DNA from: Pseudomonas alcaliphila JAB1
GTDB lineage: Bacteria; Pseudomonadota; Gammaproteobacteria; Pseudomonadales; Pseudomonadaceae
DNA length: 64,000 nucleotides
NCBI RefSeq assembly: GCF_001941865.1
Contig: NZ_CP016162.1
Location: 4,959,501-5,023,500 of the forward strand
Direction: 5' to 3'
Shown: piece after piece, positions 36,112 to 60,496 of the stretch
Numbering within the stretch: position 1 is the stretch's first letter
How the letters are laid out: every line of letters starts with the position of its first letter
Notes under the pieces: generated by a model
The model's database searches: none
Seen by the model: only the letters and a program-made list of their open reading frames with translations
Told to the model about the DNA's origin: nothing
Position numbers and translations under genes: made by a program

Positions 36112-36891
36112 TCATGCAAGTACCTTTACGCCTGCCACCATCAGGACCAGCGCCAACCCGATCTGAATCCAGCGCCCGGTGATTTTTCCGGCCAGCAAGC
36201 TCCCCAGCAGCACCGCCGGGACCGAACCCAGCAACAGGCTGATCAACATCCACCCATCCACCATCCCGGCAAACAGATAACCCAACCCTGCAACGACAGC
36301 GAGCGGAATGGCATGCACGATATCGGTGGCCACCAGACGATGGGGAGTCATGCGCAGAGGGTAGAGAAACAACAGCATCACACTACCCAGCGCGCCAGCG
36401 CCAACAGAGGTCAAGGCCACACAGAGCCCCAGCACCGCGCCTGAAACCACGGTCAGGACAGGCTGCACGGCCTTGAAGCGCTCTGCCTGGCTGACGCGAC
36501 GGTTTCGGGCATATGCCATCAACCTCGGCGCCGCCAACAGCCCCACGGCAGTGATCAAAACCACCACGCCAATTGCCTTGCTTAGCCATTCCACCTTGGC
36601 CACCTGCGCGCCCAGGCTCACCAGCACTACGACGAACAAGGCCAGGGGCAGGCTGCCCAACCACAAGCGCTTGGCTACCTGCCAGTCCACCTGGCCGTTG
36701 GCATGATGAATACGCGCGCCCACCAGCTTGGTAATGGCGGCAAACCACAGATCGGTTGCAATTGCAGTGACTGGCGACACCCCAAATACCAGCAGCAGGA
36801 TTGGCGTCATCAAGGCGCCGCCGCCAACCCCCGTCAATCCGACGACAAAACCGGTCAGCGCACCTGCCAGTGAATATGTCCAATCAATCAT
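36112..36891 (-). CDS. TSUP (TauE/SafE) family transporter
   Basis: 259 aa, about eight membrane helices in two halves, with the family segments VVGLTGVGGGALMTPILL and ALTSVGAGALGSVMLLFLYPL. TSUP members move sulfite, sulfate, sulfoacetate or other organosulfur anions. The start overlaps the cysQ stop by 4 bases, and the neighbours are PAPS-synthesis genes. I therefore infer sulfate supply or sulfite export linked to sulfation. The direction and substrate are not readable. Confidence 0.88.
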   Translation of the reverse strand: MIDWTYSLAGALTGFVVGLTGVGGGALMTPILLLVFGVSPVTAIATDLWFAAITKLVGARIHHANGQVDWQVAKRLWLGSLPLALFVVVLVSLGAQVAKVEWLSKAIGVVVLITAVGLLAAPRLMAYARNRRVSQAERFKAVQPVLTVVSGAVLGLCVALTSVGAGALGSVMLLFLYPLRMTPHRLVATDIVHAIPLAVVAGLGYLFAGMVDGWMLISLLLGSVPAVLLGSLLAGKITGRWIQIGLALVLMVAGVKVLA

Positions 36892-37676
36892 GCAGGGATC
36901 AGCACGGCGTTGCGCGCAGCCACGAACGAGGGGTTCAGAACATCGGGTTTGCCGTAGCGCAGGGGATTGCCCTCCCGATCCAGCACTACGCCCCCTGCGC
37001 CTTCAAGCACCGCCTGCGCAGCCGCGGTGTCCCACTCACAGGTAGGTGCCAGGCGCGGATAGATATCAGCCACCCCCTCCGCCACTCGGCAAAATTTCAA
37101 AGAGCTGCCAGCCTGTATCAGACTGACCGATCCAAGCCGCTCGATGAATGCCTGCGTTTCTTCGTTCAGATGGCTCTTGCTGGCCACAACGCGGCAACCA
37201 TCATCCGGTTCAGCCGCGCTGACCTTGATCGGCTGCGTACCTGCGGCTGTCTCTCTGAATGCACCCAGGCCGGCGCCCCCCCAGTACATGCAGTCGATAG
37301 CAGGTGCATAGACCACACCCAACACACTACGACCCTGATCGATGAGAGCGATATTGACCGTGAACTCGCCATTACGCGCGATGAATTCCTTGGTGCCATC
37401 AAGAGGATCGATCAACCAAAAGCGCCCCGAGCCATTGCGATGCGCCAGCGAACGCTCATCTTCTTCCGACACCACTGGATAGCCGGGCGACAAAGAACCA
37501 AGGGCGCTGTTCAAGACAACGTGAGCGGCCAAATCAGCCTCGGTAACCGGACTGTGATCTGCCTTCTCACGAACACCGCTCTGCCCACTGCCGTAAATCG
37601 ACATGATGGCATCACCCGCCTGACGAGCGATTGGCAACAAAAGAGCAGCCAAGTCGATCGATACACGCTGTCGCAT
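36888..37676 (-). CDS. cysQ: 3'(2'),5'-bisphosphate nucleotidase
   Basis: 262 aa inositol-monophosphatase-like enzyme that dephosphorylates PAP, the by-product of every PAPS-dependent sulfotransfer. Metal-binding motifs are present: SEEDERS, FWLIDPLDGTKEFI and the C-terminal CEWDTAAAQAVLEGAGG. Length is normal. It is divergent from cysD (69 bp between starts) and coupled to the TSUP gene. Its place between sulfate activation and transport genes fits PAP removal during polysaccharide sulfation. Confidence 0.94.
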   Translation of the reverse strand: MRQRVSIDLAALLLPIARQAGDAIMSIYGSGQSGVREKADHSPVTEADLAAHVVLNSALGSLSPGYPVVSEEDERSLAHRNGSGRFWLIDPLDGTKEFIARNGEFTVNIALIDQGRSVLGVVYAPAIDCMYWGGAGLGAFRETAAGTQPIKVSAAEPDDGCRVVASKSHLNEETQAFIERLGSVSLIQAGSSLKFCRVAEGVADIYPRLAPTCEWDTAAAQAVLEGAGGVVLDREGNPLRYGKPDVLNPSFVAARNAVLIPA

Positions 37677-37745
37677 AATGTAAATCCCTGTGATTTAATT
37701 TGATCAGCGAATCTTATCACGCGATTTTTATTGCTCGGAATCAAT

Positions 37746-39215
37746 ATGACCCAAACTACGACAGCCGCTGCAGGTGATTTTGCCGGGCTCGAGGCCGAAC
37801 AGGTCTGGGATACCCATCTCGCCTACGAACACCTCAAAGCGTGCGGCGAGGCCGATACCAAGCGCACGGCCGAACGCCGTCTGAACGCTCAGGGTCTGCT
37901 GCCTGCTGAATTGACTGAAGAAGCACTGCAAGACGAGCATGGCCGCGCCCCCAACAGAATCGTACTGGCATGGGCCATGGAGCAAGCGCGCAAACGCCGC
38001 GACAGAGTGCTGTTCGTTCAACTGAGCCCGCTACCCAGCGGAAAGCCCTGTCTGCACGCAAACGATGCCAGGGGCGCGCGCTTCTGGGTGCCATTGGCAA
38101 ATGTCGCGTGGGAAACAGTCCGCACGGCCTGTGTCGCATTGCAAGAACACATCGGCAAGCCCGTCGCGGTGTTTCCGCATGGCTCGTTGGTAGCCTCGAT
38201 GCGCAACGCGGACGAGATGCCTGACATCCACTGCTGCGTGCAGGTCTACCAGCCGGTGCTACCGCCTCAACTCAAGCTCCACCGGTTCGATTCAATGCCC
38301 GCAGAGGCGGTATCCGAACTATCCCCGCACCTCAAGCGCCTGGAAGCAGAGAGCATTCACATCATCCGTGAGGCGGTAGCCGAGGCGCAGAATCCCGCGA
38401 TGCTCTATTCCATCGGCAAAGACAGTGGCGTGATGCTCCACCTTGCCCGCAAGGCCTTCTTCCCCTCACCGCCACCCTTTCCGTTACTGCACGTAGACAC
38501 GCGCTGGAAGTTTCAGGAGATGTATCTGTTCCGTGATTTCATGGCACGTGAGAGCGACATGGACTTGCTGGTACACACCAACCCGGAAGCCATCGAAAAG
38601 AATATCAACCCTTTCGATCATGGCTCTTCGCTGCATACCGACATCACCAAAACCGAAGGGCTCAAGCAGGCGCTGGACAAGTACAAATTTGACCTCGTGT
38701 TTGGTGGCGCGCGCCGCGATGAAGAAAAATCCCGCGCCAAGGAGCGCATCTTCTCGTTTCGCAGCGCAACCCAGCGCTGGGATCCGAAAAGCCAGCGCCC
38801 GGAACTCTGGAACCTCTACAACACCCGTAAAAGCCAGGATGCCAGCATTCGGGTATTCCCCCTGTCGAACTGGACCGAACTCGATATCTGGCACTACATC
38901 TACCTGGAAAACATCCCCATGGTGCCCCTGTACTTTGCCAAGTTGCGGCCTGTGGTCGTGCGACCCGAGATGATCATGCTGGTCGACGACGAGCGCTGCA
39001 AACTGCTGCCCGGCGAAGACATTCAGATGCGCAAAGTGCGTTTCCGCACACTGGGCTGTTACCCGCTGACAGGGGCCGTGGAGTCAGAAGCGCAGACGCC
39101 GGAAGACATCCTGCTGGAAATCATCAACACACGACAATCCGAACGGCAGGGCCGTCGAATCGATACGGATAGCGCAGGCTCCATGGAGAAGAAAAAACAA
39201 GAGGGCTACTTCTGA
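37746..39215 (+). CDS. cysD: Sulfate adenylyltransferase subunit 2 with an N-terminal extension
   Basis: 489 aa, while CysD is normally about 300. From residue ~190 the protein is a complete Cys[22 protein letters not shown]-loop [10 protein letters not shown] (221-230), [45 protein letters not shown] and the C-terminal [11 protein letters not shown]. Residues 1-189 form an additional domain I do not recognise ([55 protein letters not shown]). The frame is continuous with no internal stop. With CysN it makes APS from ATP and sulfate. The cysNC start overlaps its TGA by one base. Confidence 0.93.
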
Positions 39216-41125
39216 TGGCACGCCTCAAGAAAAGCATCTCGCCTGAACAGCACGCCCACAAGACGGCAACACTGAGCGAATGGCTCGAGCAGCAAGCCAA
39301 TCAGGACCTGTTGCGTTTTATCACCTGCGGTAGCGTCGATGACGGCAAAAGCACGCTTATCGGCCGCTTGCTCTGGGAAGCACAGCAGGTCTTCGACGAT
39401 CAGTTGAGTACGCTGCAGGCCGACTCCAAGCGCCATGGCACCCAAGGCAACGATATTGACTTCGCCTTGCTGGTCGATGGCCTGGCAGCCGAGCGAGAAC
39501 AGGGCATCACCATCGATGTGGCCTACCGCTTCTTCTCCACACCGCATCGCAAATTCATCGTGGCCGACACCCCTGGCCACGAGCAATACACGCGCAACAT
39601 GATCACAGGAGCCTCCACCGCCGACGTTGCGGTACTGCTGGTCGATGCGCGCCAAGGCGTGATGACGCAAACCCGCCGGCACGCTTATCTGGCAGCACTG
39701 GTGGGCATAAAGCACATCATCCTGGCCATCAACAAGATGGATCTGGTGGCGTATGACGCTCAGGTGTTCGCCGATACGCTGGCTGCGTTCAACACTGCGG
39801 CCGAGCCATTGGGATTCGACAGTATCACCGCCATCCCATTGTCGGCTCTCAAGGGCGACAACATCACCTCCCGCTCGGCGCATACGCCCTGGTACCAGGG
39901 CCCAACCCTCATGGCCTGCCTGGAAACCATCGACCCTCGTCCCCCCAGGGAATTCAAAACGGTCTTTCCCGTTCAATGGGTCAACCGTCCGGATGCCAGC
40001 TTCCGAGGCTTCAGCGGCACATTGGCCTCCGGCCAGCTAGCCGTTGGCAACGAAGTGCGCGTAACGGCTTCCGGGCAAACGGCCAAGATCGCACGCATCG
40101 TCACCGCCAACGGTGATCTCGACTGTGCCAACCCGGGTGACGCAATCACGCTGGTATTGGACCGCGAAGTCGACTCCTCGAGAGGCGACATACTGGCGCG
40201 CGCTGAGCAACCGCTGGAAATGACCGACCAGTTCGAAGCCACCCTGGTCTGGATGCACGACGAGCCTGGCCTGATAGGCCGCTCCTACGAGATCAAACTG
40301 GCGAACCAATGGGCCAGCGCCAGCCTTACCGCACTGAAGCACCGCATAGACGTCAACACCCAAGCTCATGAATCGTGCCGCCAGCTGCAGCTTAACGACA
40401 TCGCAGTGGCCAACCTTGCACTGAGCAAGCCACTGGTTTTCGATACCTACGCCCAATCAAACACCCTGGGCGGATTCCTGCTGGTCGACAAATACACCCA
40501 CAGCACCGTCGCCGCCGGCATGATCCGCTACAACCTGCGCCGCGCACAAAACGTACATCGCCAGGCACTCAGCATTACCCGCGAGGACCGCGAACGCCTT
40601 AATGGCCATAAAGGCAAGGTCATCTGGTTCACCGGCCTTTCCGGCTCGGGAAAATCGACCATCGCCAACGCCCTGGAGAAAGAACTCCACGCCCAGGGCA
40701 AACGCACCTATATCCTCGATGGCGACAACGTTCGCCAAGGCCTGAACAAGGACCTGGGCTTTACCGATGCCGACCGGGTGGAAAATCTTCGACGCGTGGC
40801 TGAAGTAGCCAAACTGATGATGGACGCCGGGCTGATCGTGATGACGGCATTTATAAGCCCCTTCCGCGCAGAGCGCCAGATGGCTCGGGAGCTGATCGGA
40901 GAAGATAACTTTATCGAAGTGTTCATCGACACGCCGCTGGCCGTGTGCGAGCAGCGTGATCCGAAGGGGCTCTATAAGAAGGCGAGAAGCGGGCAGCTAC
41001 CGAACATGACGGGTATCAGCAGCCCTTATGAACCCCCACAGCAATCAAATATGGTGATCACGACATCTACCACAGAAGATGTCGTGGCGCAGATAACCCA
41101 CTATCTTGCTGACGAGGCCAAATAA
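39215..41125 (+). CDS. cysNC: Bifunctional sulfate adenylyltransferase GTPase subunit / APS kinase
   Basis: 636 aa. CysN part (1 to ~435): GTPase motifs [27 protein letters not shown] and NKMD, followed by EF-Tu-like beta barrels. CysC part (~450-636): [29 protein letters not shown] and ISSPYEPP. Together with CysD it converts sulfate to PAPS, the sulfate donor. Its 3' end runs 25 bases into the 3' end of the convergent gmhB gene. PAPS feeds assimilation in general, but the genes around it point to sulfotransferases. Confidence 0.96.
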
Positions 41126-41643
41126 GGCAATGCCTCGGAAAGTTGTGTGATGACAATGGCTTCATTGGCACTCCTGTCGACCTTCAAGTGCAATAGCGTG
41201 CCGACGCCCGCAGCGCGGCCAGCGGCCATGTCGGTAAGCTTGTCACCAATAAAAATTGATTGCTCCAGATCGATGCCTAGCTCGCTTTGAGCCTGCAGTA
41301 ACATGCCGGGGGCAGGCTTACGAAACTCGCTCTCTCGGTGGTACTCCCCCATGCCATGCTCTGGGTGGTATGGGCAAAAGTAGACAGCGTCGATTATTCC
41401 GCCGTGCTCAGCGAACCTTGCCTTCATCCATTTCGTCAGCGCATGAAAAACCAACTCGCTGTAGAAGCCTCGTCCAATACCAGCTTGATTCGTCACAACA
41501 ACAACGAGGTATCCGTTGCGGTTGGCAGAAGCTACCAGTTCGAAAATACCTTCTACGAATTCGAATGCCTCTGGAGTATGAACATACCCATGATCCACAT
41601 TGATCACACCATCGCGATCTAGAAACAGCGCAGGCCTATTCAT
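41101..41643 (-). CDS. gmhB: D-glycero-D-manno-heptose-1,7-bisphosphate 7-phosphatase (HAD-IIIA)
   Basis: 180 aa. HAD motif [16 protein letters not shown] at the N-terminus, [11 protein letters not shown] (motif II), RKPAPGMLL (motif III) and [12 protein letters not shown] (motif IV); zinc-loop cysteine and histidines in FCPYHPEHG. Removes the 7-phosphate to give heptose 1-phosphate for HddC. Start overlaps the hddC end by 4 bases. Last gene of the polysaccharide operon. Confidence 0.92.
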
Positions 41644-42329
41644 AGAGTTGCCAAGAGCGTCTGCGCCCGCGCATAGTCATCGGGGACACCAATATCGATG
41701 AAAATTCCCTCTGTAACAAAAACCTCTACTCTTGCGCGTAAAACCTCTGCTACCAAATAGTCATTTTCAATAGAAAAGGGCTGATTTAAGAGAAATCCAG
41801 TGAGCGCATCCGTGGCCAGCACATAGCAGCCAGCGTTAATGAGACCAGGGCCAGCGGCTCCCTTTTCGGCAAAGTTTGTGATCCGGACCCCATCCACAAC
41901 CAGCCTCCCATAACGCGCTGTGTCCGGCACATGCCTGCCTACAACGATTGGATGCTTCTTTGCCTGCCATTGCTTTTCGATCTGCGCAGCCTCAAGGTTT
42001 AGAAAAGTGTCACCATTAAAAATAAAGACGTGATCCTGGGTGCACGCCTCTGCCGCAAGACGAGCCGCCCCCCCAGTGCCAAGCGGCGAGTCTTCCACCA
42101 TGTAGGCGAGGTCCAACCCCGCAAACCGGGAGCCAAAATGACCAGAAATTTTCTCTGCCATGAACCCCAACGAGAGAACGACTCGGGAAAAGCCCTTCTG
42201 CGCCAGCGAGCCAAGCAATATCTCTAAAAAAGGGCGACCCGCAATAGGAGCCATCGGCTTGGGTACATCGGCTACGACTTGCCGCAAGCGCGTGCCAAAA
42301 CCGCCTGCAAGAACAATGGCCTCCATCAT
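41640..42329 (-). CDS. hddC: D-glycero-D-manno-heptose 1-phosphate guanylyltransferase
   Basis: 229 aa nucleotidyltransferase with AIVLAGGFGTRLRQVVADVPKPM at the N-terminus, FIFNGDTFLN (metal site) and GTGGAARLA. In this context it makes GDP-heptose; the fold alone would also allow other nucleotidyl sugars. It overlaps gmhA and gmhB by 4 bases each. Confidence 0.88.
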   Translation of the reverse strand: MMEAIVLAGGFGTRLRQVVADVPKPMAPIAGRPFLEILLGSLAQKGFSRVVLSLGFMAEKISGHFGSRFAGLDLAYMVEDSPLGTGGAARLAAEACTQDHVFIFNGDTFLNLEAAQIEKQWQAKKHPIVVGRHVPDTARYGRLVVDGVRITNFAEKGAAGPGLINAGCYVLATDALTGFLLNQPFSIENDYLVAEVLRARVEVFVTEGIFIDIGVPDDYARAQTLLATL

Positions 42330-42916
42330 TCAGGGGCCTTGAATATGGCGCTTTCCACCAAACCGCACAGAATATGCCCCAGTACCAAATGTCCTTCCTG
42401 AATTTTGGGCGTATCCGCGCTTGGAACTTCCAGCAGGTGATCACACAGCTCACGAATTTGGCCGCCACGATTGCCCGTCAGACCTATGCAAACCAGCCCC
42501 CTAGTTCTGGCTTCCTTAAACGCTAGCAAGACATTGGCCGACTTACCGGACGTTGAATAACCAATAAACACATCGCCTTTCTGCCCATGCGCCTGCACCT
42601 GACGAGCAAAAAGATTCTCGTATCCGTAGTCGTTGCCAATGGCGGTCAGAATGGAGGTATCTGTTGTCAAGGCAATAGCCGGAAGCCCTGGACGATCGAA
42701 GGCAAAGCGACTGACAAGTTCACCAGCGATGTGCTGGGCATCAGCTGCACTACCGCCGTTGCCGGCCAGCAAAATTTTGCCACCCGAGCGAAAACACTCA
42801 ATGCACGCGGCAGCCGCTTGCTCCAACTCGACTTGCAAGGGCAGGTCCAGAAGCATTGCCTGAATGACCTTCTGAGCCTCGAGTATTTTTTCGTGAATAT
42901 AGCTTTGCATGCTCAA
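42326..42916 (-). CDS. gmhA: Sedoheptulose 7-phosphate isomerase
   Basis: 196 aa SIS-domain protein. Substrate-binding loop AGNGGSAADAQHIAGELVSRF, GYSTSGKSANVLLA and C-terminal EGHLVLGHILCGLVE. Converts sedoheptulose 7-phosphate to D-glycero-D-manno-heptose 7-phosphate, the first step for this cluster. It starts 35 bases after the hddA stop. A separate gmhA copy for the LPS core is expected elsewhere in the genome. Confidence 0.92.
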   Translation of the reverse strand: MSMQSYIHEKILEAQKVIQAMLLDLPLQVELEQAAAACIECFRSGGKILLAGNGGSAADAQHIAGELVSRFAFDRPGLPAIALTTDTSILTAIGNDYGYENLFARQVQAHGQKGDVFIGYSTSGKSANVLLAFKEARTRGLVCIGLTGNRGGQIRELCDHLLEVPSADTPKIQEGHLVLGHILCGLVESAIFKAPE

Positions 42917-42951
42917 TCCTTTTCTAAAAAAACGCCCCCAGCGCCGACGTA

Positions 42952-43980
42952 TTAAACCCGCCAGGCTTGAGTACCGTGCTTGGTAAAGTGGCAGTTGCTT
43001 ACCTGCCCCTCAAACTTGTTCAGCACCCGGATCACATCCATGCGCTTTTCTGTCGGCACAAAAAACAGCATGAAGCCACCACCACCGGCACCAGAAACCT
43101 TCCCAGCCAAGGCCCCGGCCTTGATAGCGGCATCGTAAATAGAGTCGATATGTGTATTCGACACCGTTTTAGCCGAGCGTTTTTTGTTTTCCCAGCCAAA
43201 GCGCATGGAGTCGACCAAACCGGCAAAGTCGCCACGCAACAAGCACTCTTTCATCACCAAGGCCTCTCGCTTGATTCCGTGCATGGCATCCAGCGCATCT
43301 ACTGAGCCTGATTCCACATTCCTACTCTGGTCGGCAATGATATGGGCCGACTCACGCGAGACACCGGTAAAAAAAAGTACCAGCGAAGCTTCCAGCTCGC
43401 AGATGATCCAGTTCTTGACTCTTAATGGATTGATTACTGTGCGCTCATCCGCATAGAACTCCATAAAATTGAACCCACCGAACGTGGCGGAATATTGATC
43501 CTGCCGTCCGCCCTGCAAAGCACAATCCACGCGCTCGATCTTGTAAGCCAATTGCGCAATGGTGTAATCGTCCAGTGGCAGATTCAGCAACTCGGCAAAC
43601 GCCCGAATCATTACCACCACCAAGGTGGAAGACGACCCCAAGCCAGAACCGGCAGGTGCGTCACAGAAGGTACTCAACTCCATCGGAATCGGCTTACCTC
43701 CATTGAAGTGCTGCACCATGTGAATATAGACAGCCTTGTGCAGATCAAGCTCACCGTTCAAAACCAATGTGCCATCTGCTGCGATAAACGTCTCAGTCTG
43801 CTGATCGGTAGCCACCAACCGAACGACGGGCTCATCTAGCGTTCTGATGACCGCATAAGCGTAACGATCGATGGTGGCATTGAGCACAAACCCACCGTGG
43901 ATATCGCAGTACGGAGAAACATCCGTACCGCCTCCGGCCAAACCAAGACGAAGGGGCGCACGGGCGCGAAAAATTGGCAT
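42952..43980 (-). CDS. hddA: D-glycero-alpha-D-manno-heptose-7-phosphate kinase (GHMP family)
   Basis: 342 aa. N-terminal RAPLRLGLAGGGTDVSPYCD, the GHMP ATP loop PAGSGLGSSSTLVV and C-terminal KVSGAGGGGFMLFF. Phosphorylates heptose 7-phosphate at O-1 with alpha configuration, committing it to the GDP-heptose (not ADP-heptose) route. Together with gmhA, hddC and gmhB it is a full set. Confidence 0.92.
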   Translation of the reverse strand: MPIFRARAPLRLGLAGGGTDVSPYCDIHGGFVLNATIDRYAYAVIRTLDEPVVRLVATDQQTETFIAADGTLVLNGELDLHKAVYIHMVQHFNGGKPIPMELSTFCDAPAGSGLGSSSTLVVVMIRAFAELLNLPLDDYTIAQLAYKIERVDCALQGGRQDQYSATFGGFNFMEFYADERTVINPLRVKNWIICELEASLVLFFTGVSRESAHIIADQSRNVESGSVDALDAMHGIKREALVMKECLLRGDFAGLVDSMRFGWENKKRSAKTVSNTHIDSIYDAAIKAGALAGKVSGAGGGGFMLFFVPTEKRMDVIRVLNKFEGQVSNCHFTKHGTQAWRV

Positions 43981-44020
43981 CAGTCAGTTCCAGTATTCAA
44001 GACTCTTAGGACAATTCCCT

Positions 44021-45053
44021 TTACCGATTCAAAGGAATTCGGCCTTTGGCAATCTCGCTGCGCCAGTGGTCAAGCAAATCGGCAAACATCTGCTTAGCTG
44101 GGATATCTGGCTTCCAATCTATCGCTTCACGGATCTTGGTGTTGTCGAACATTTGGTAGTCGGCGTCGATTGGCCGCATACGTTCCTGATCGGTCACGAC
44201 CTTAATGTCTGTTCGAGAACTGAATCCGAGCAGGATCTCGATCACCTCTGGCAGTTGATAGGCCTCCTCACCGGCGATATTGAAATACTCACCGCAGGGG
44301 ATTTTTCCCAAGGCACTTGCTTCGAGTAAAAGGAAATACGCCCTGACTGCGTCCCGCGCATCCTGGAATGTTCTGGTGCTAGAGAGGTTTCCAACACGAA
44401 TAAACGGCTCTTGATACCCGGCTTCAATCAAGGCAATTTGCTTAGCTACAGTGCTCTCGAAGAACACATCGCTGCGCCTTGGGCCAGAATGCGTACCCAT
44501 ACGAGTGATGAAGGTGCGCAAACCATACGCCTCACCGTAGAAGCGGCCCAGATAATCGGTACCGATCTTGCTGATACTATAAGGACTCGCTCCATGAAAG
44601 GGCGCGTCTTCCGCAAGCGGAATCCCGGGTTTGGCGCGGCCATAGACTTCGCTTGAAGAGCAGACATGCACGACCGGGTCGTAGCCGTCAGCCTCCTTCT
44701 GCTGGCGGACGGCCTCAAGCAGGTTGGCGGTACCGATGATGTTGGTCTGCAGCGTTTCGATCGGAATATCAAATGACGTTTTAGGGTACGACTGCGCAGC
44801 CAGGTGCGAAATGTAATCTGGCCGGACTGTCTTGAGCATACGCGCGAGGGCTGAGTAATCATTCAGGTCGGCATAATGCAGGCTAATCCGGTCCTTGCGA
44901 TTGATACGCTCGGTCAGGTGGTAAAGATTGTCCATCGACTCCTGCCATCTCATCATGCCGACGACGTCGTACGACGTATTTTCGAGCACGAAGTCCGCCA
45001 ACTGTGAGCCCACCTGGCCGGTAATCCCAGTGATCAATATCTTTTTAGTCATG
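44021..45053 (-). CDS. GDP-heptose 4,6-dehydratase (DmhA/WcbK-like; GDP-mannose 4,6-dehydratase family)
   Basis: 344 aa from the ATG at 45053 ([21 protein letters not shown]). Extended SDR with Rossmann GxxGxxG (GITGQVG), a catalytic Ser-rich stretch CSSSEVYG and the YxxxK motif PYSISKIG. It resembles GDP-mannose dehydratases, but its position beside hddA-gmhA-hddC suggests GDP-D-glycero-D-manno-heptose as substrate. It would make the 4-keto-6-deoxy intermediate, as DmhA or WcbK does. The start overlaps the preceding SDR end by 9 bases. Confidence 0.85.
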
Positions 45054-51705: not shown

Positions 51706-51964
51706 GTGTTCAGTAACCCTCAGTCGTGCAATTTTCATCGATCTTGATGAATGCCAAAGGCACAATAGGTGCTTAATCCAGAGCAGTGCACTGAATCATC
51801 GCAAAAGTGCCACTGTAAATACGGCGCGCTGTACATTTGGCCGGCAACCGTACTGCCTAGGTAAATCCCGACAAATTGGCAACAATCGTCACATGAAATC
51901 TCGGGCTTAAACCGGCATGCGTGAACATATACATGCTAAAAAATCAGCTAACCAATATTGGCTT

Positions 51965-53326
51965 TCATTTCTTACATCTATCTATTCTAAAACCACTCAA
52001 TCTAAATGATATCTCCCTGCTATCGTTACCTCCCGCCATACTTCCAATCCCCGAAAAAGCAAGCGAGGACTCTAAATCAATAATAACATATGCGCCCTTG
52101 TTACAAATCGGTTTAAGTTCGTCTGCATGTAAATGTATGCGAAGCGTAGTACTGCGATAACCTGCAGCAACCATTAGAGACTCGCGCAGAACACCATCAA
52201 TAAAAATATCCAATTTAACTTCGTTTTTTATTTGCTCCGGGAACACACTCTCAAGCTCTATAGTAACTTCATATGACTGCTTACCTGAAAAATATGCAAT
52301 CAAACTCCCTTTACGCTTCATCCATGAATGTTCTTCACCCTGATGAAATCCTGACAGCGGCATCAACGTCTGAGGCACATCAATTCCAGGCCACTTTAAA
52401 GAAACGTCTAGACCTAGCTGGGCCAACACTTCATCAGAGTACCCCACCAACTCACGCGCAGACCGGGTAAGATTTAATATTTTCCAAGCATCTATTGGCG
52501 AAATTTGGTCGTTAGCCATATTAAGGAATAATCGACGGTAATTCATTGGTGCCCGTTCAGCTATTTCACTATCATTACCGTTCTCTACAAATCGCAGCAC
52601 CCGGTCTTCAGGTATGCGCTCAAGAAACACATGCATCCGCGTCACCACTAGACTTGGACTCAAGGCCATATCTTCATAGCGAACCAATAAACTTTTGGGA
52701 GACATCAATGCGCGGTTTGCTGCATCTGCATACTCAAGATATAAACCAATATTTCTTTCCAGCCCTCCTTTGAATTCATTGGAGTAAGGATCACCATCTT
52801 TAACACGCACGCTCATAGAGCGAAGCACGCCAAACGGCTCGCGAATGACTACAACACTCTTAGCCTCAGTTTTACCTGCATAATTAGCCATTGAGAATAT
52901 ATTATTAGGAGTTTTTTCCCCTAAAATTGAACGCGTCTCAACTTGGGCTAGCAACTCTTTCAAAGCTATCAATGAGGCTTGATATAGATCCACACCTGAT
53001 AACTGAGCGAGCAAAAGCGCTCGAGCTCTTTCCACTAATTCATCCACATTTTTTTCGTTAAAAATTATATTTTTAGGATGTGCACCTTTACTCACATTAA
53101 ACCTGGGCATTTCTAACATGGAAACAACAAGCTGCTGGCGCAATGTAGCGATTACCACATCAATCTGGTCACCCCTACACGGCAAATAAGCAAACATACT
53201 TTGCAACATTGGCACCAAGTGGGTTTCTCCCGCATAACAAAACACATCATCATGCAAAGAAAGAAATTTAGCCGCCACTGTAGTTCCACCGCGCGGCATC
53301 CCACCTACGATAAAATCCAGCTGCAT
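51965..53326 (-). CDS. Sulfotransferase 2 with a C-terminal beta-rich domain
   Basis: 453 aa from the ATG at 53326 (GAGG upstream; a GTG two codons earlier is the alternative). PAPS-binding features: FIVGGMPRGGTTVAAKFL at the N-terminus and SVVVIREPFGVLRSMSVRV near residue 190; LLVRYEDMALSP follows. Residues ~330-453 form a separate beta-rich region with alternating hydrophobics (YEVTIELESVF, KLDIFIDGVLRESLMVAAG), possibly carbohydrate-binding. AT-rich. A 198-bp gap to the next gene upstream of sulfotransferase 1 contains nothing recognisable. Confidence 0.82.
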   Translation of the reverse strand: MQLDFIVGGMPRGGTTVAAKFLSLHDDVFCYAGETHLVPMLQSMFAYLPCRGDQIDVVIATLRQQLVVSMLEMPRFNVSKGAHPKNIIFNEKNVDELVERARALLLAQLSGVDLYQASLIALKELLAQVETRSILGEKTPNNIFSMANYAGKTEAKSVVVIREPFGVLRSMSVRVKDGDPYSNEFKGGLERNIGLYLEYADAANRALMSPKSLLVRYEDMALSPSLVVTRMHVFLERIPEDRVLRFVENGNDSEIAERAPMNYRRLFLNMANDQISPIDAWKILNLTRSARELVGYSDEVLAQLGLDVSLKWPGIDVPQTLMPLSGFHQGEEHSWMKRKGSLIAYFSGKQSYEVTIELESVFPEQIKNEVKLDIFIDGVLRESLMVAAGYRSTTLRIHLHADELKPICNKGAYVIIDLESSLAFSGIGSMAGGNDSREISFRLSGFRIDRCKK

Positions 53327-53440
53327 AAACACCTCAAAAAGTTAAATTTTTAAATGCCATCTATTGATCAAACAGATGCGCTATACATAAATCAAATCAA
53401 TTTAAACAATAATCAAAACCTATGAAACTTATCCGTCCAA

Positions 53441-54139
53441 CTATAGCTGCCGAATAATATCATCGTACATGCAGAGTGTTTCATCTATTGACTCACCACC
53501 AACCAATGAGCCATGGTTAATTATTAAACAACGATCACATAGATTAGCAACTTGACTGCGCGAGTGTGATACAAAAACAACGGTCTGGCCTGCAGCGATC
53601 TTCAGCATCATGGTGCGCTCTGCTTTCTGCTTGAAATGGGCGTCGCCAACGCTGAGCACTTCATCCACCAGCAGCACATCTGGACTGATAATGGTACTGA
53701 TTGCAAAGCCCAAACGTGCGGACATACCGCTGGAGTACTTGCGCACAGGCTCGTCGAAGAAGTCGCCCAACTCCGAATAAGCCTTTACCTCCTCCAGGCG
53801 CTGGAGCACTTCTTTGCGGGTGTAACCAAGCAACATGCCGCCGAAGATAGCGTTGTCTCGCCCGCTGAGGTTGCTATCAAAGCCTGCTTGCAACGCCAGT
53901 AGCGCGACTGACGCGCCCCGGTTGATCACTTTGCCGCCGTCCGGGCGCAGCGCGCCGGACATGATCTTGAGTAGGGTGGACTTGCCAGCACCATTGGCGC
54001 CAAGAATGCCCAGCGTTTCACCGGCGCGCACATCCAGGGAAATGCCTTTAAGCGGTTCGACATAGCCCGTTTTGCTAGCGTTACCGCTCATTTTAAAGCG
54101 GACACTTACGTCGCGTAGGGAGATAAATATCTTGCTCAT
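53441..54139 (-). CDS. wzt: Polysaccharide ABC exporter ATPase (Wzt/KpsT type, no C-terminal glycan-binding domain)
   Basis: 232 aa from the ATG at 54139, sharing one base with the wzm stop (TGATG). Walker A GILGANGAGKSTLLK, signature KYSSGMSARLGFA, Walker B DVLLVDEVLSVGD, H-loop FVSHSRSQV. It belongs to the Wzt/KpsT/TagH family that powers export of completed polysaccharides. It ends right after the nucleotide-binding domain, lacking the ~180-residue carbohydrate-binding domain of O9a/O8-type Wzt. Confidence 0.93.
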   Translation of the reverse strand: MSKIFISLRDVSVRFKMSGNASKTGYVEPLKGISLDVRAGETLGILGANGAGKSTLLKIMSGALRPDGGKVINRGASVALLALQAGFDSNLSGRDNAIFGGMLLGYTRKEVLQRLEEVKAYSELGDFFDEPVRKYSSGMSARLGFAISTIISPDVLLVDEVLSVGDAHFKQKAERTMMLKIAAGQTVVFVSHSRSQVANLCDRCLIINHGSLVGGESIDETLCMYDDIIRQL

Positions 54140-55587
54140 CACAGCATGCCTTGGCGAACGAAGTTTCGGCGCTGCCGTGTATAGATTAAGTAATTGGCGA
54201 TAAACACTACGGCGCTCGCCAGAGTGACGTAGCCCAAGCTGGTTAAGTCTGGTGCCTTGCCTTCCAGAATTACGTCGCGGTAGGCGCTGATCATCTGGGC
54301 CAGCGGGTTATATTGGAGCCACTGGGCAATACTGTCGGGCATACTGCGGTAGTCGTAAATCACTCCGGAGAGAAACATCAGTAGAGTCAACCCCGTGGCA
54401 ACCAGGTTGGCAAGGTCGCGAAAAAACGGAATGATCGCGGCAAGCAGCATGCCCAGGGCCAGCGTCAGCAGAAACTGGATCAGCAAGATGAGTGGCAACC
54501 AGAGCAGGTTCAAACTGATGGTCTGCAGATCGGTCAGCAGCCCCAGGCCAAGTAGACACAGCAGGGCCGGCAGTTGCTTGAAGGTGGACTGAAAAATGTT
54601 GACCAGAGGGAAGAAGGCCGGCGCGATGTTGGTGTTGAGCATCAGGGACTGACCGCCGATGATGCTGGTGGCGCTGGTAGAAATCGCCTTGGCGAACCAC
54701 ATCCATGGCACCAAACCACAGAGCAGGAACAGGCCGTAGTTTTCCGAACCGCTATGCAGTATCTGCCCGAACAGGAAGTAGTAGATAACCAAATGCAACA
54801 AGGGCTCGATGACTACCCATACATAGTTGAGGTGGGTGCGGGCCGATTCGGACTTCATGTTAAGCAGCGCTTTAGTCGTAACCAGTTGCATAAAGTGCAA
54901 CAAACCGACCCGGGCCGAGCGTTTGGCCGTCTGTAGGGGCTGCGCTGGAGCTAGCAACTCCGCACCATATTGTGCAGCCAGCCTGTAGCTACGGGCTTCT
55001 GTCGTCTTACCCTGATGCTTGCAGGCAACGCCCACTTGCCTGTAAGCATGGGCAAGCTCTGGCTTTAATTCGATCACCCGCTTCCAGCGATTTTCGGCTT
55101 GTGGCCAGTCTTCGCGCTTTTCAGCCAGCTCGGCATACTGAAGCCAAGGCTCGATACGCTCGCTGGCATGTTCACGCGCCTGTTGATTGAACGCTTCGGC
55201 GGCGTCGATGTTGCCCAGCTTCAGTTCCAGCTCGGCAGACTTACTCAGCAGTTGCCAGTGGTTCGGGCAATTCTTTCTCCCGTCAGCCAAGAAGGCGGAC
55301 TCCTGCTCGGAGTTATGACGCATGGCTGCCCATTCGGCACTGGTCAGCCATGCGGATGCCTGCCCGGCAAATAGGCGGCGCGCCTCAGCTAATAGCTCGC
55401 CAGCACTCTGTAAGTCTCCTTGTCGCATCATGCTAATTGCGCCCTGTATCCAGGGAGCTGGATATCCTTTGTATAGATCACGGTAGGTGCGCCAGAACTC
55501 ACTAGCCTCCGCCCAACGTTTTTCACGCATAGGCTTCATGCCCAGTTCAAAGGCAGCAGCAGGGGAAAGTAATTCGCTATTGGACAT
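54139..55587 (-). CDS. wzm: Polysaccharide ABC exporter permease (Wzm/KpsM) fused to an N-terminal TPR domain
   Basis: 482 aa, against ~260 for ordinary Wzm. Residues 1-~215 are helical TPR-like repeats (REKRWAEASEFWRTYRDLY, KLGNIDAAEAFNQQAREHA, EKREDWPQAENRWKRVIELKPELAHAYRQVG; parts quoted). From ~245 on is an ABC-2 membrane domain with six helices (SESARTHLNYVWVVIEPLLHLVIYYFLFG, PFFRDLANLVATGLTLLMFLSGVIY; parts quoted). The TPR part, facing the cytosol, may dock the synthesis enzymes or the glycan end. Forms the channel with Wzt. Confidence 0.92.
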   Translation of the reverse strand: MSNSELLSPAAAFELGMKPMREKRWAEASEFWRTYRDLYKGYPAPWIQGAISMMRQGDLQSAGELLAEARRLFAGQASAWLTSAEWAAMRHNSEQESAFLADGRKNCPNHWQLLSKSAELELKLGNIDAAEAFNQQAREHASERIEPWLQYAELAEKREDWPQAENRWKRVIELKPELAHAYRQVGVACKHQGKTTEARSYRLAAQYGAELLAPAQPLQTAKRSARVGLLHFMQLVTTKALLNMKSESARTHLNYVWVVIEPLLHLVIYYFLFGQILHSGSENYGLFLLCGLVPWMWFAKAISTSATSIIGGQSLMLNTNIAPAFFPLVNIFQSTFKQLPALLCLLGLGLLTDLQTISLNLLWLPLILLIQFLLTLALGMLLAAIIPFFRDLANLVATGLTLLMFLSGVIYDYRSMPDSIAQWLQYNPLAQMISAYRDVILEGKAPDLTSLGYVTLASAVVFIANYLIYTRQRRNFVRQGML

Positions 55588-55657: not shown

Positions 55658-56200
55658 TCAGTAAACATCAGCTTCAGATAAGCACGTGCCGAGACTGTCC
55701 TTACCGGAAAGGACGGGCAGCCCACTGTATGGCCATTGAATGCCGATTTGCGGATCATTCCAGTGAATGCAGCGCTCATGAGCGGGGGCGTAATAATCCG
55801 TTGTCTTATACAGAAACTCGGCGGTGTCCGTGAGCACAACAAAACCATGGGCAAAACCTTCCGGCACCCACAATTGGTGCTTGTTCTCCGCGCTTAAGTG
55901 GGCCCCCACCCAATGACCAAAGGTCGGTGATTTTTTACGGATATCCACTGCTACATCAAACACTTCGCCTTGCACTACGCGCACCAGCTTTCCTTGCGGT
56001 TGCTGAATCTGGTAATGAAGCCCACGCAGCACGCCTTTTACTGAGCGCGAGTGGTTGTCTTGTACAAAGGATACGGATCGCCCTACAGCTTCTTCGAATT
56101 GACGTTGGTTGAAGCTTTCATAAAAGAAACCTCGCTCATCACCAAATATCTTGGGCTCGAACAGGATTACGTCGGGGATGGCTAATGGTGTGGCGTTCAT
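55658..56200 (-). CDS. rfbC: dTDP-4-dehydrorhamnose 3,5-epimerase
   Basis: 180 aa from the ATG at 56200, sharing one base with the rfbA stop. Cupin epimerase with catalytic histidine and surroundings SVKGVLRGLHYQIQQPQGKLV (parts quoted), FDVAVDIRKKSPTFG, and PEGFAHGFVVL. Third step to dTDP-L-rhamnose. The longer open frame upstream (to 56329) is not used. Confidence 0.95.
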   Translation of the reverse strand: MNATPLAIPDVILFEPKIFGDERGFFYESFNQRQFEEAVGRSVSFVQDNHSRSVKGVLRGLHYQIQQPQGKLVRVVQGEVFDVAVDIRKKSPTFGHWVGAHLSAENKHQLWVPEGFAHGFVVLTDTAEFLYKTTDYYAPAHERCIHWNDPQIGIQWPYSGLPVLSGKDSLGTCLSEADVY

Positions 56201-57090
56201 CAGTAAATCGTCCCGCGCAGAAGGCGCTGAAGGTATTGGCCATAGCCGTTTTTGCAGAGCGGCACGGCTAGCTTTTCGAGTTCCTCGGCATTGATCCATT
56301 TCTGCCGAAAGGCAATTTCTTCCGGGCAAGCGACTTTCAGGCCCTGGCGGTTTTCAAGGGTGGCGATGAACTGACTGGCCTCCAGCAGCGACTCATGGGT
56401 GCCGGTATCCAGCCAGGCGTATCCGCGTCCCATGATTTCAACGATGAGTTGGCCCTGCTCCAGGTAGAGGCGATTGAGGTCGGTGATTTCCAGTTCGCCA
56501 CGCGGGGAGGGTTTGAGGCTTTTGGCCAGCTCCACGACCTGATTGTCATAGAAGTAGAGGCCGGTAACGGCATAGCTGGATTTCGGCGCCGTCGGTTTCT
56601 CTTCAAGGCTGATGGCCTTGCCCTGATCATCGAACTCGACCACGCCATAACGCTCGGGGTCATGTACGTGGTAAGCGAACACACTGGCGCCGTGCTCGCG
56701 CGACATCGCGCTCGTTAGCAGCTCCTGGAAATGATGGCCATGGTAGATGTTGTCACCCAGCACCAACGCCGCCAGATCGTTGCCAATGAACGCTTCACCG
56801 ATCAGAAAAGCCTGGGCCAACCCATCCGGCGATGCCTGCACGGCGTAGGAAAGGCTGAGCCCCCACTTGCTACCGTCGCCCAATAGCTGTTCGAAACGCG
56901 GGGTGTCTTGTGGCGTGGAAATGATCAGGATTTCACGAATACCCGCCAGCATCAGGGTGGTCAGCGGGTAATAGATCATCGGCTTGTCGTAAACCGGCAG
57001 GAGCTGCTTGGAGATCGCCAGGGTCGCAGGGTGCAGACGAGTGCCTGAACCGCCTGCCAGGATGATGCCTTTACGTTTTAGCATGTTCAT
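56200..57090 (-). CDS. rfbA: Glucose-1-phosphate thymidylyltransferase
   Basis: 296 aa from the ATG at 57090, which overlaps the rfbD stop (ATGA). Signature [18 protein letters not shown], then [22 protein letters not shown] and [12 protein letters not shown]. Makes dTDP-glucose, first step of dTDP-L-rhamnose synthesis. Confidence 0.96.
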
Positions 57091-57983
57091 TTCTCTAGTA
57101 CTTCTGTGAGCATCCGTGCGACACCGACTTGCCACTCAGGCAAGTTCAGCGCAAAGGCCTTTTGCAGTTTCTGTGTATCGAGTCGTGAATTGTTCGGCCG
57201 TTTGGCCGGGGTCGGATAGGCGCTGCTGGGGATAGCCGCAACCTGGTTGCCGTGTACCTTGAGGTCGACACCTTCGGCCGCTGCCCGCTCCAGAACGAAG
57301 CGTGCATAGGCATGCCAGTTGGTTTCGCCGGATGCGGCAAGGTGATACAGCCCGCCCAACTGGGGCTGTTTCAGGGTCGAACGAATGAGATGTGCGCTGA
57401 TATCTGCCAGCAGTTCAGCCCCGGTCGGCGCACCGAACTGGTCAGCAATCACGCTGAGGCTATCGCGCTCACGGGCCAGACGCAGCATGGTCTTGGCGAA
57501 GTTGTTGCCACGCGCGGCGTATACCCAACTGGTGCGCAGGATCAAATGCAGGCAGCCACTTGCCTGGATTGCGCGCTCGCCAGCCAGCTTGCTGGCACCG
57601 TATTGATTGAGGGGCGCAACAGCATCCGTTTCGCACCAGGGGCGTTCACCGTCGCCGGCAAACACGTAGTCGGTGGAGTAGTGCACCAGCAAACTACCCA
57701 ACTGCTTGGCCTCGCGAGCCAATACGGCAACGGCCTCGGCATTCACCCGGAAGGCCAGGTCAGTCTCGCTCTCGGCCTTGTCAACGGCGGTGTAGGCGGC
57801 TGCATTGACGATCACATCCGGCGCGAAACGCTGCACGGTCTTTGCCAGGCCGTCGAGATCACACAGGTCTCCGCAGTAGTCGCTGCTTTTGGAGTCAAGC
57901 GCAAGCACGCTGCCCAATGGGGCCAGGCTACGTTGCAGCTCCCAGCCAACCTGGCCGTTTTTACCTAGCAGCAATATGTTCAT
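57087..57983 (-). CDS. rfbD: dTDP-4-dehydrorhamnose reductase
   Basis: 298 aa from the ATG at 57983, overlapping the rfbB stop (ATGA). SDR with [40 protein letters not shown] and the YxxxK motif [10 protein letters not shown]. Last step to dTDP-L-rhamnose. Confidence 0.96.
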
Positions 57984-59050
57984 GCACTGCGCCCGCGATA
58001 GTTGGTTTCCATCCATTGGCGGTAATCGCCAGACAGCACGTTGTTCACCCAGGTTTGGTTATCCAGATACCACTGCACTGTCTTGCGGATACCGGTTTCA
58101 AAGGTTTCGGCGGGTTTCCAGCCTAGCTCAGTGGCCAGTTTGGTCGCATCGATCGCATAGCGCCGGTCATGCCCGGGGCGATCGGTAACGTAGGCAATCT
58201 GCTGCTGATACGGCTGGCCATCGGCGCGGGGACGCAGCTCGTCCAGCAGGGCACACACAGTGCGCACGATTTCCAGGTTGGGCTTCTCGTTCCAGCCACC
58301 CACGTTGTAGGTCTCGCCCAGCACGCCAGCTTCAAGCACGCGGCGGATGGCACTGCAGTGATCCTTGACGTAAAGCCAGTCGCGGATCTGCTGGCCGTCG
58401 CCATACACCGGCAGAGGCTTACCGGCCAGGGCGTTGACGATCATCAGCGGGATGAGCTTTTCCGGGAAATGATACGGCCCATAGTTGTTCGAGCAATTGG
58501 TGGTGAGCACCGGCAGGCCGTAGGTGTGATGGTAGGCACGCACCAAATGGTCGCTGGCCGCCTTACTGGCCGAATACGGGCTGTTTGGTTCGTACTGATG
58601 TTTTTCGGTGAACGCCGGCTCGGCTTTGCCCAAAGAGCCGTAGACCTCGTCTGTCGACACATGGAGGAAACGAAACGCCTGCTGCGCCTGCGGCTCGAGC
58701 GCCTTCCAATAAGCACGTACAGCTTCCAACAGACGGAAGGTGCCGACGATGTTGGTCTCGATAAAATCTTCCGGCCCGTGGATGGATCGGTCGACATGAG
58801 ATTCCGCAGCAAAATTGAGAATGGCCCGTGGCTGATGTTCAGCCAGCAGACGCGCCACCAGGGCGCTGTCACCAATATCGCCCTGAACAAACAGATGCCT
58901 GGCATCACCCTCCAGGCTGGCGAGGTTCTCCAGGTTGCCGGCATACGTCAGTTTATCCAGGTTGACCACCGGCTCATCGGACTGGGCCAGCCAGTCGAGC
59001 ACGAAATTACTGCCGATGAAGCCGGCTCCGCCGGTTACAAGAATAGTCAT
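57980..59050 (-). CDS. rfbB: dTDP-glucose 4,6-dehydratase
   Basis: 356 aa. [42 protein letters not shown] and [20 protein letters not shown] (catalytic Tyr/Lys). Second step of dTDP-L-rhamnose synthesis. It begins 3 bases after the upstream glycosyltransferase stop; the BDAC order is the usual one in pseudomonads. Confidence 0.97.
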
Positions 59051-59053
59051 GCG

Positions 59054-60094
59054 TCAGATTTTCCCGAGAATAGCCGCAGCGATCAGGCCAATATTGCCCA
59101 GCAGTGTTTGGCGGTAGATACCGCTGCGTTTGAGATGGATAAGACGAGGAATAAGGCTCATACCCCGGGCATGAGCAAAGCGCTGAAGTATTTCCCGGTT
59201 TTCGGGTGTCAGCCTGTGTTCTAGCGTGAGTAGCGCAGAGATGTTGCAATCATTCCAGTGCTTGAAGCGCCCCAGAAACAGCATACGGATACGTTTGAAA
59301 CGAGCTGCCCAGTTGGAGTTGGTGCCCACCAGGTTACCGCCGTGCTGGCGATAGCGCAGTGTGGGCTTGCTGTCATAGAACACGCGACCGCCACAGCCCG
59401 TCACAACCATGTAGGCCCACCAATCGTGGGTGATCACGGACTTGTTTGCCCCGGCTTCGCGCAAGAGTTCTCGCGCAGCATTGTTGAACACCATGGTGTT
59501 GCCACCACCGATGTTCTGTATCAAGGCATTGGCGAAAGCAGGAGTTTTGGTAAACAGTGGTGATATACCGATTTCATTATTCTCGGCATCAACCAATCGG
59601 GTGCGCGAGCAGTACAAAGCCGGAACACTGGGGGGCACAGTGGTAAGCCACTGCAATGCCCTCGATAATTTATCAGCCTCCCACACATCATCTTGATCTG
59701 AATAGGCATAGAAGTCTGCTTCGACACCGGCTCTGCAGGTTAGCGATAGGAAGTTGGCAGCAAAACCCTCCGCAGGCCCAAAATGAATGGATAAACGACC
59801 AGCAGGCCATTGCGCCTTGTACGCCATGAGAATGGAGTGCGTATTGTCCTTAGACCCATCATCGGAGGCCCAGACTTCCCAATTGCCATGGGACTGAGTT
59901 GCAAAGGAGTCTAACTGTTCTGCCAGATAACGCTGGCCATGATAGGTGCACAGGAGAATGGCAACCTTGGGCATCTGCTCATGGTGCTCCGGTGGGAATA
60001 CGGCCACCGTTATTCCAGCGGCATCAGCTTCATCACTGGAAGAGACCGAATCTATATTTTCGGAGTTGGGAGAAGGTACTTTCAGCTGTTCCAT
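59054..60094 (-). CDS. GT2 glycosyltransferase (probable rhamnosyltransferase)
   Basis: 346 aa from the ATG at 60094, six bases after AGGT; the ATG at 60100 is the alternative. GT-A fold: VAILLCTYHGQRYLAEQLDSFATQSHGNWEVWASDDGSKDNT (parts quoted) with the DDGS nucleotide site, AYSDQDDVW as the DxD-type motif, and HDWWAYMVVTGCGG. Resembles RfbF/WbbL-like rhamnosyltransferases, fitting the neighbouring rml genes. First gene of the polysaccharide operon, so the promoter lies in the 600 bp to its right. Confidence 0.88.
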   Translation of the reverse strand: MEQLKVPSPNSENIDSVSSSDEADAAGITVAVFPPEHHEQMPKVAILLCTYHGQRYLAEQLDSFATQSHGNWEVWASDDGSKDNTHSILMAYKAQWPAGRLSIHFGPAEGFAANFLSLTCRAGVEADFYAYSDQDDVWEADKLSRALQWLTTVPPSVPALYCSRTRLVDAENNEIGISPLFTKTPAFANALIQNIGGGNTMVFNNAARELLREAGANKSVITHDWWAYMVVTGCGGRVFYDSKPTLRYRQHGGNLVGTNSNWAARFKRIRMLFLGRFKHWNDCNISALLTLEHRLTPENREILQRFAHARGMSLIPRLIHLKRSGIYRQTLLGNIGLIAAAILGKI

Positions 60095-60496
60095 CAACAT
60101 ACCTAGTAATCAGGCACCTAAAGGTGCAACCCTTTTACACTGAAAGCTTTTAAAAACATCACCTGAGAACACTCCTATCAGACCAAGTCATACGCAGACG
60201 CAAAACGGATAGTCATTGCCCCCCTACGAAACGCAAGCGAGTCTCGCGAAATGCGACTGATTTCGCCGCGCGCCAGCTTGTTCAGCGCATAAAATCATAG
60301 CCGGCTCGCCACCTAACAGGGATCACAGTCTGAATCCTTCATCGGCACCATCTTACACAAACCAGGCCTTGTGTAGAGCACCACTTGTCCTGCGCAGCCC
60401 TCCAAGGACAACCGCCGATTATACATCGCTCAGGAAACAAATTGCGTCAGCAACGCCGACTTAATAACCAACGGTGGTTAGTTGGCACCTTAGTGC

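Follow-up and report, generated by a model that had tools for sequence, protein, structure and literature searches.

The window analysed here is a 64,000-bp stretch (bases 4,959,501–5,023,500) of the single-contig 5.34-Mb genome of Pseudomonas alcaliphila JAB1, and it carries genes for the synthesis and recycling of 3′-phosphoadenosine 5′-phosphosulfate (PAPS) next to genes for an exported glycan. In particular, genes for a TSUP anion transporter, CysQ, CysD, and CysNC adjoin a 19-kb glycan operon on the minus strand (41101–60100), and family matches bear out the gene set and coordinates that an initial annotation of the sequence had proposed (Table 1). The operon encodes heptose and rhamnose pathways, glycosyltransferases, methyltransferases, an ABC exporter, and two putative sulfotransferases, ST1 and ST2. 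Both sugar pathways, likewise part of the initial annotation, are supported: a dehydratase is very similar to Protein Data Bank (PDB) entry 7us5, a solved GDP-D-glycero-D-manno-heptose 4,6-dehydratase, and GmhB and RmlC/A/D/B exceed their NCBIfam cut-offs. The predicted heptose pathway is well supported; its HddA-like kinase matches PDB entry 4usm ("putative sugar kinase", E 1.4e-178), followed by 3k85 and 4n3o, which are named heptose kinases.

Table 1. Features of the PAPS module and the glycan operon (positions in the window; GT, glycosyltransferase family; SDR, short-chain dehydrogenase/reductase; ORF, open reading frame; G373, a related genome of the survey).
Feature	Position	Strand	Basis
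TSUP (TauE/SafE) anion transporter	36112..36891	-	PF01925, E 1.7e-40
CysQ, 3′(2′),5′-bisphosphate nucleotidase (predicted removal of PAP, 3′-phosphoadenosine 5′-phosphate)	36888..37676	-	NCBIfam TIGR01331, 280.9 bits (cut-off 228.8)
Extra N-terminal domain of CysD, ~180–185 residues	37746..38285	+	no family match
Extended CysD, ATP sulfurylase small subunit, 489 aa from ATG	37746..39215	+	NF009214/TIGR02039, over cut-off
CysNC, ATP sulfurylase GTPase subunit fused to APS (adenosine 5′-phosphosulfate) kinase	39215..41125	+	NF004035, 953.7 bits (cut-off 715); PF01583
Stretch unmatched in the corresponding G373 region	40984..53528	.	blastn; ends inside cysNC and wzt
GmhB, heptose-1,7-bisphosphate 7-phosphatase	41101..41643	-	TIGR00213, 180.9 bits (cut-off 149.6)
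HddC-like heptose-1-phosphate guanylyltransferase	41640..42329	-	best NCBIfam NF049965, 177.8 bits (under cut-off of 300)
GmhA-like sedoheptulose-7-phosphate isomerase	42326..42916	-	best NF010546 and TIGR00441, both under cut-off
HddA-like heptose-7-phosphate kinase	42952..43980	-	best NCBIfam NF049969, 398.2 bits (under cut-off of 600)
GDP-D-glycero-D-manno-heptose 4,6-dehydratase	44021..45055	-	PDB 7us5, E 1.5e-175, residues 2–344; next 3.2e-44
SDR reductase, probable 4-keto-6-deoxyheptose reductase	45045..45929	-	weak RmlD-type matches, best E 2.3e-9
Methyltransferase-GT2-GT4-methyltransferase fusion, 1470 aa	45926..50338	-	Pfam
Methyltransferase	50349..51059	-	PF08241
ST2, Sulfotransfer_2-related sulfotransferase	51037..51705 (ORF 51037-51765; homologues begin near 51705)	-	family via homologues only
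ST1, Sulfotransfer_3-type sulfotransferase	51965..53326 (ORF 51965-53332)	-	PF13469, 39.8 bits (cut-off 27)
Wzt-like ABC ATPase	53441..54142	-	PF00005
TPR-Wzm fusion, ABC-2 permease	54139..55587	-	PF01061; weak TPR matches under cut-offs
rmlC, rmlA, rmlD, rmlB (dTDP-L-rhamnose)	55658..59050	-	TIGR01221, TIGR01207, TIGR01214, TIGR01181, each over cut-off
GT2 glycosyltransferase	59054..60100	-	PF00535

A search for a second cysDNC in the genome, suggested as a check alongside the initial annotation, found a separate cysD–cysNC on the same contig (G000:C1:991451-994225); the window cysDNC is therefore an extra copy and not the only one of the genome. The CysD of the other copy lacks the N-terminal extension described below and is 66% identical to the window CysD. 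Reading and family searches of the 15 kb around it revealed no glycan or sulfotransferase gene, and this other cysD–cysNC is presumably the housekeeping copy.

The initial annotation recognised CysD and overlooked that it is a fusion, with residues 1 to ~185 forming an extra domain. The CysD ORF (37731-39215, plus strand) encodes 494 residues, and the NF009214/TIGR02039 match covers residues 191–494, such that an ordinary CysD corresponds to about the last 300 residues. The N-terminal domain has no match in Pfam at E ≤ 1, in NCBIfam at E ≤ 0.001, or in PHROG at E ≤ 0.1, and a comparison with the PDB gave no convincing solved relative: the best match is a designed helical repeat protein (E 5e-5, no single stretch passing), followed by antibody chains at E ≥ 0.35. 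A database search, covering proteins of ~270 aa upward and thus blind to the domain alone in a short protein, yielded 645 matches (E ≤ 0.001). All 120 of the matches listed also carry the CysD domain PF01507, and their named sources are Pseudomonas, Ectopseudomonas, Metapseudomonas, Phytopseudomonas, and Aromatoleum. The domain is strongly conserved (for example, KRTAERRL in 15/15 aligned sequences). A plasmid search with it gave zero matches, and the literature matches listed include no CysD extension of this kind.

We surveyed 398 genomes of the genus and a class-wide sample of 369 genomes. Extended CysD is present in 11 of the 398, the window's own genome included; a twelfth match, in G392 (E 1.5e-4), was excluded because its frame has 57 aa and contains stops. 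Each of the 11 genomes has another CysD besides (one each at the sensitivity used), and CysNC follows extended CysD in each, with one gene between in two: a gene for an FAD-NAD(P)-binding protein (L041:7382-8806, PF13454; L042:11436-12857, with a similar sequence start). A PF13469 or PF03567 protein lies 2.8–13.4 kb from extended CysD in 8 of the 11 genomes. Specifically, 8 of the 19 hits to these two families in the 11 genomes are near extended CysD (within 14 kb), versus ~0.13 expected by chance, and 0/19 were detected in the 20 kb to either side of the other CysD. The clustering exceeds chance, with a binomial value of 3e-13 that ignores relatedness and uses a 20-kb cut chosen after the neighbourhoods were seen; the 8 genomes represent ~6 independent cases, because G378/G201 and G281/G026 are near-duplicate loci. 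The count takes hits on other contigs as far and uses PF13469/PF03567, with PF00685 left out genome-wide. Altogether, sulfotransferase-like proteins are present at 10 of 10 judgeable genus loci, eight by Pfam and two (G276 and G288) by similarity and motif; the latter two are large proteins, ~11 and 15 kb away, with N-termini 31–43% identical to each other and to a G373 protein and with both motifs. PF13469 is found in 161 of the 398 genomes, and its presence alone says little.

The class-wide sample added two genomes with extended CysD, G404 and G462, the latter with the gene on a 5.7-kb contig. In G404, a 1.9-Mb genome from another family of the class, genes for TSUP, a CysQ-like protein, CysNC, and extended CysD stand in one row beside two glycosyltransferase genes and a gene whose product is sulfotransferase-like by motif only, with no Pfam match.

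ST1 shows the hallmarks of the sulfotransferase superfamily: a Pfam match over cut-off, a loop like the 5′-phosphosulfate-binding (5′-PSB) loop, and an Arg/Ser pair as in the 3′-phosphate-binding (3′-PB) motif. The best solved relatives of an ST1 profile are tyrosylprotein sulfotransferases (whole-sequence E 2.7e-5, no stretch passing alone), with a match that spans the 5′-side loop and the following Glu-containing motif. We aligned each window protein with hand-chosen homologues, 17 of the 53 listed for ST1 and 20 of the 120 listed for ST2. ST1 residues E36, R164, and S172 are invariant (18/18); we take E36 to be the counterpart of the tyrosylprotein sulfotransferase catalytic base, and the Arg and Ser eight residues apart are presumably the 3′-phosphate motif. 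ST2 residues K35 (the 5′-PSB Lys), R112, and S120 are likewise invariant (21/21). PF03567 is matched at E ≤ 0.01 by 9 of the 21 members of the ST2 alignment, and the ST2 counterpart at one other ST1 locus, L009, exceeds the PF03567 cut-off (26.6 versus 22 bits). Thus, of the PAPS-binding motifs that the initial annotation had read in both proteins, the 3′-side Arg/Ser pairs hold in every aligned sequence, while the 5′-side loop of ST1 is absent in 3 of 18, those with shorter N-termini. GC content is 44–45% over ST1/ST2, versus 59–68% across the window's initial 34 kb.

A scan of genome contigs revealed five further ST1 loci, in Pseudomonas sp. SJZ079, P. taiwanensis, a Nitrospinota metagenome-assembled genome, Paracoccus, and Pseudogemmobacter, with the Paracoccus and Pseudogemmobacter homologues sharing only 29% identity with ST1. 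In 5 of the 6 loci (the window and L010–L013), a gene for an HddA-like heptose kinase lies close to ST1, and ST2 adjoins ST1 in 3 of the 6, the window counted. ST1 thus occurs mostly in the company of GDP-heptose genes, and its sulfate acceptor may therefore be heptose or the neighbour of heptose. Two of the six loci, those of Pseudomonas sp. SJZ079 and P. taiwanensis, have a stand-alone APS kinase (Pfam) 3–4 kb from ST1. These kinase genes, inside the ST1 glycan loci (L009:6219-6830 and L010:5492-6085), could provide PAPS on the spot from APS made elsewhere.

ST1 itself is present in only 2 of the 398 genus genomes (three matched, of which the one in G368 was set aside as weak and partial), and a pairing of CysD with ST1/ST2 specifically was rejected on this ground. 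Co-occurrence of the PAPS genes with both sulfotransferases, a further check suggested at the outset, is thus seen with varied sulfotransferases and not with ST1/ST2 particularly.

A comparison with G373, whose CysD is the nearest in the sample to that of the window (98%), reveals an exchange of the intervening genes. In blastn alignments, the flanks match at 95.5% (left) and 93% (right), the PAPS module at 96.3%, and the Wzt/TPR-Wzm/Rml/GT2 part at 91.3%, with the GT2 protein 94% identical. Between them, positions 40,984–53,528 of the window lack a counterpart in the equivalent G373 region, the part of that genome searched. This heptose/sulfotransferase stretch is replaced by an unrelated cassette, again with a sulfotransferase: a PF00685 protein (E 5.7e-15), ~2 kb from CysD and co-directional with cysNC. 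The G373 cassette also encodes a KTGST-motif protein, a sulfotransferase-like/glycosyltransferase protein, and an acyltransferase. For this single genome pair, the pattern is that of serotypes exchanged by recombination between constant flanking parts, one of which is the PAPS module. Proteins with the motif HVGxxKTGST lie beside extended-CysD modules (L063:1999-3000 and L051:266-2557); they are 23–28% identical over ~150 residues, have no Pfam match, and are possibly a further sulfotransferase family.

We interpret the locus, with a probability of roughly 0.77, as a sulfated surface-polysaccharide locus, in which a portable PAPS supply and recycling module and an exporter serve exchangeable glycan cassettes. 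A sulfated surface polysaccharide had been proposed in the initial annotation, and the second cysDNC, the co-location of extended CysD with sulfotransferases, and the genuine heptose and rhamnose pathways support it. In the proposed mechanism, one constant part would be the PAPS module: TSUP would probably transport an inorganic sulfur oxyanion, APS would come from extended CysD together with CysN, the CysC domain would convert APS to PAPS, and CysQ would destroy the product inhibitor PAP. The Wzm/Wzt exporter and the dTDP-rhamnose genes would form the second constant part, and the cassette between the two would define the glycan through GDP-6-deoxy-manno-heptose synthesis, glycosyltransferases, methyltransferases, ST1, and ST2. 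With PAPS as the sulfuryl donor, ST1 and ST2 would modify hydroxyls of the chain while it grows in the cytoplasm and before it is exported, and the product may be an O-antigen or a capsule. Judging from its genes, the strain probably bears a coat of sulfated polysaccharide; descriptions of such polymers have to date come mostly from marine bacteria.

Several observations weigh against this interpretation. The sulfation step is predicted here from genes, and the reductase assignment is weak. ST2 itself matches no Pfam family, and its profile reaches heparan sulfate 2-O-sulfotransferase only at E 0.18, after two unrelated proteins. TSUP and CysQ genes, which adjoin each other in the G373 and G404 modules as well, lie beside the module in only 3 of 13 extended-CysD loci (the window, G373, and G404; two others are on contigs too short). 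The G373 fusion protein, one of the eight, is a borderline near hit (28.3 bits in the genome search versus 23.2 in hmmscan, cut-off 27) in a genome whose clear PF00685 sulfotransferase lies nearer to CysD, the sulfotransferase-like neighbours in G276 and G288 are not accepted by Pfam (unmatched or under cut-off), and the G227 contig stops 1.5 kb past CysD, too soon to judge. L009 lacks heptose-kinase genes in the stretches read, further stretches included. CysD copies were also counted in a set of 24 genomes, comprising G404, G462, and 22 genomes hand-picked among the PF13469 matches listed. G404 yielded no CysD besides that of the module, and the module there is therefore no extra copy; all eight genus genomes hand-picked for larger sulfotransferases carry only one CysD, and a sulfotransferase can therefore do without a dedicated copy.

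Three other explanations fit parts of these data. The sulfotransferases could act on another substrate, such as a tyrosine of a secreted peptide or a lipid, with no more than a shared location linking them to the glycan genes; the position of ST1 and ST2 inside the glycan operon, the heptose kinase gene that accompanies ST1 at every locus read except L009, and the joint swap of sugar and sulfotransferase genes in G373 make this unlikely, even with tyrosylprotein sulfotransferases as the closest solved relatives of ST1, with CysD without the extension sitting by sulfotransferases among SDR and AMP-ligase genes that resemble small-molecule chemistry, and with RaxST, a bacterial sulfotransferase discussed in connection with tyrosine sulfation in the available part of one report (PMC4216712). 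That the window cysDNC serves as a spare for sulfate assimilation and cysteine supply, and lies beside glycan genes by chance, is very improbable: CysD and CysNC are assimilation enzymes, and the G404 module holds the only CysD found in that genome, but extended CysD is a second copy in 11/11 genus genomes and, unlike the other copies, lies near sulfotransferases, and a PF01507 reductase is not adjacent in the window genome, whose PF01507 hits are two CysD and only one other, at C1:2836817. Least probable of all is that local PAPS is a signal controlling polysaccharide expression, with the sulfotransferases secondary, as proposed for PAPS and cyclic di-GMP in Vibrio vulnificus: the PAPS-dependent control of the brp polysaccharide described there uses, in the text available, the assimilatory cysDNC (PMC6113621), sulfotransferase-like proteins stand at all judgeable genus loci, and cysQ removes PAP, a function relevant for sulfotransfer.

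The interpretation as a sulfated surface-polysaccharide locus finds its closest parallels in two marine clusters. The sulfated capsule of Cobetia marina KMM 1449 has been determined structurally, with sulfate on rhamnose; as the available part of the report describes, the cluster of this strain resembles the window in having cysN/C, cysD, cysQ, and a sulfate permease in one operon, together with an ABC exporter, rhamnose genes, and a sulfotransferase, and differs in having a Kps exporter with kpsSC, instead of Wzm/Wzt with TPR-Wzm, and GDP-mannose instead of GDP-6-deoxyheptose (PMC11766843). The sulfated-capsule cluster of Vibrio sp. KMM 8419 similarly combines a second cysC, cysN, and cysD with sulfotransferases, rhamnose genes, and an ABC exporter, and its authors call PAPS genes with sulfotransferases a hallmark of sulfated polysaccharide loci; it differs in that cysC is separate, and the available text mentions "heptose" once and cysQ not at all (PMC11641403). 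The window shows the features of these clusters: a dedicated second cysD-cysN-cysC, cysQ and a predicted TSUP-type anion transporter beside the PAPS genes, an ABC exporter of the Wzm/Wzt and not the Kps type, and sulfotransferase genes, ST1 by Pfam and ST2 through homologues. The principle is thus known, because the Cobetia and Vibrio sulfated capsules share this gene logic; the window locus differs in its genus, its 6-deoxyheptose cassette, the domain fused to CysD, and an indication that the PAPS module stays in place when a cassette is exchanged. The literature matches listed, with subscription journals mostly outside the search, include no report of a sulfated polysaccharide locus of Pseudomonas.

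More distant parallels concern one half of the locus each. Rhizobial NodPQ/NodH couple dedicated PAPS synthesis to a glycan-acting sulfotransferase, there for a Nod-factor lipochito-oligosaccharide, here presumably for a polysaccharide exported by an ABC transporter. The GDP-heptose capsule genes of Campylobacter jejuni resemble the window in comprising a heptose kinase, an isomerase, a guanylyltransferase, and a GDP-heptose 4,6-dehydratase, and the Burkholderia capsule is a GDP-heptose capsule with comparable genes; we know of no dedicated PAPS module in either, although no search aimed at one was made.

For the N-terminal domain of CysD, we tentatively propose, at somewhat worse than even odds, a dedicated coupling or regulatory role. 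The domain would reserve ATP sulfurylase for surface-glycan sulfation, perhaps by docking to a sulfotransferase or an exporter complex or by sensing PAP or a sugar nucleotide. Extended CysD would then mark the portable PAPS module; this module and, at the opposite end, the exporter would serve as fixed anchors, with recombination swapping sulfated-glycan cassettes between them and so producing sulfated serotypes in Pseudomonas and its relatives. If the interpretation as a sulfated surface-polysaccharide locus is correct, extended CysD would be a sequence marker that finds sulfated-glycan loci without prior knowledge of their sulfotransferases, and a new domain fused to a textbook enzyme poses a testable question. 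Sulfated surface polysaccharides would then be no marine speciality, with several serotype-like forms existing in Pseudomonas. The locus also supplies new candidates for glycan sulfotransferases, acting on heptose or rhamnose, along with the genes feeding them.

Some CysD copies without the extension, located beside sulfotransferases, form a second dedicated CysD–CysNC type. A CysD of this type lies within 6 kb of a sulfotransferase hit in 14 of 14 genus genomes hand-picked by PF13469 hit lengths. The initial annotation had regarded dedicated PAPS genes beside glycan genes as rare outside rhizobial Nod-factor and some capsule loci; beside sulfotransferases in Pseudomonas, they are not (extended CysD in 11/398 genomes, and the 14/14 picked genomes). 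Examples are L020:334-12254 (G264), where CysD–CysNC adjoins genes for a PF13469 sulfotransferase, an SDR, and an AMP-ligase, and L019 (P. taiwanensis). The notion that any second CysD by a sulfotransferase signifies a polysaccharide was rejected, as the G264 and P. taiwanensis copies lie among SDR-like and (in G264, by Pfam) AMP-ligase genes; the assignment of an L020 neighbour as a DHH phosphoesterase was dropped, as Pfam gives no family. This second CysD–CysNC type possibly serves small-molecule sulfation.

Two further features concern the exporter and the edge of the locus. The Wzm permease bears an N-terminal TPR-like region, and its Wzt partner has 233 aa and therefore lacks room for a large C-terminal glycan-binding domain. 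A tRNA-Thr gene lies at 34300-34375, 1.7 kb to the left of the PAPS module; the left flank common to the window and G373 stops at this gene (34376), and the match resumes at 35933, making the tRNA-Thr end of the common flank a possible island boundary.

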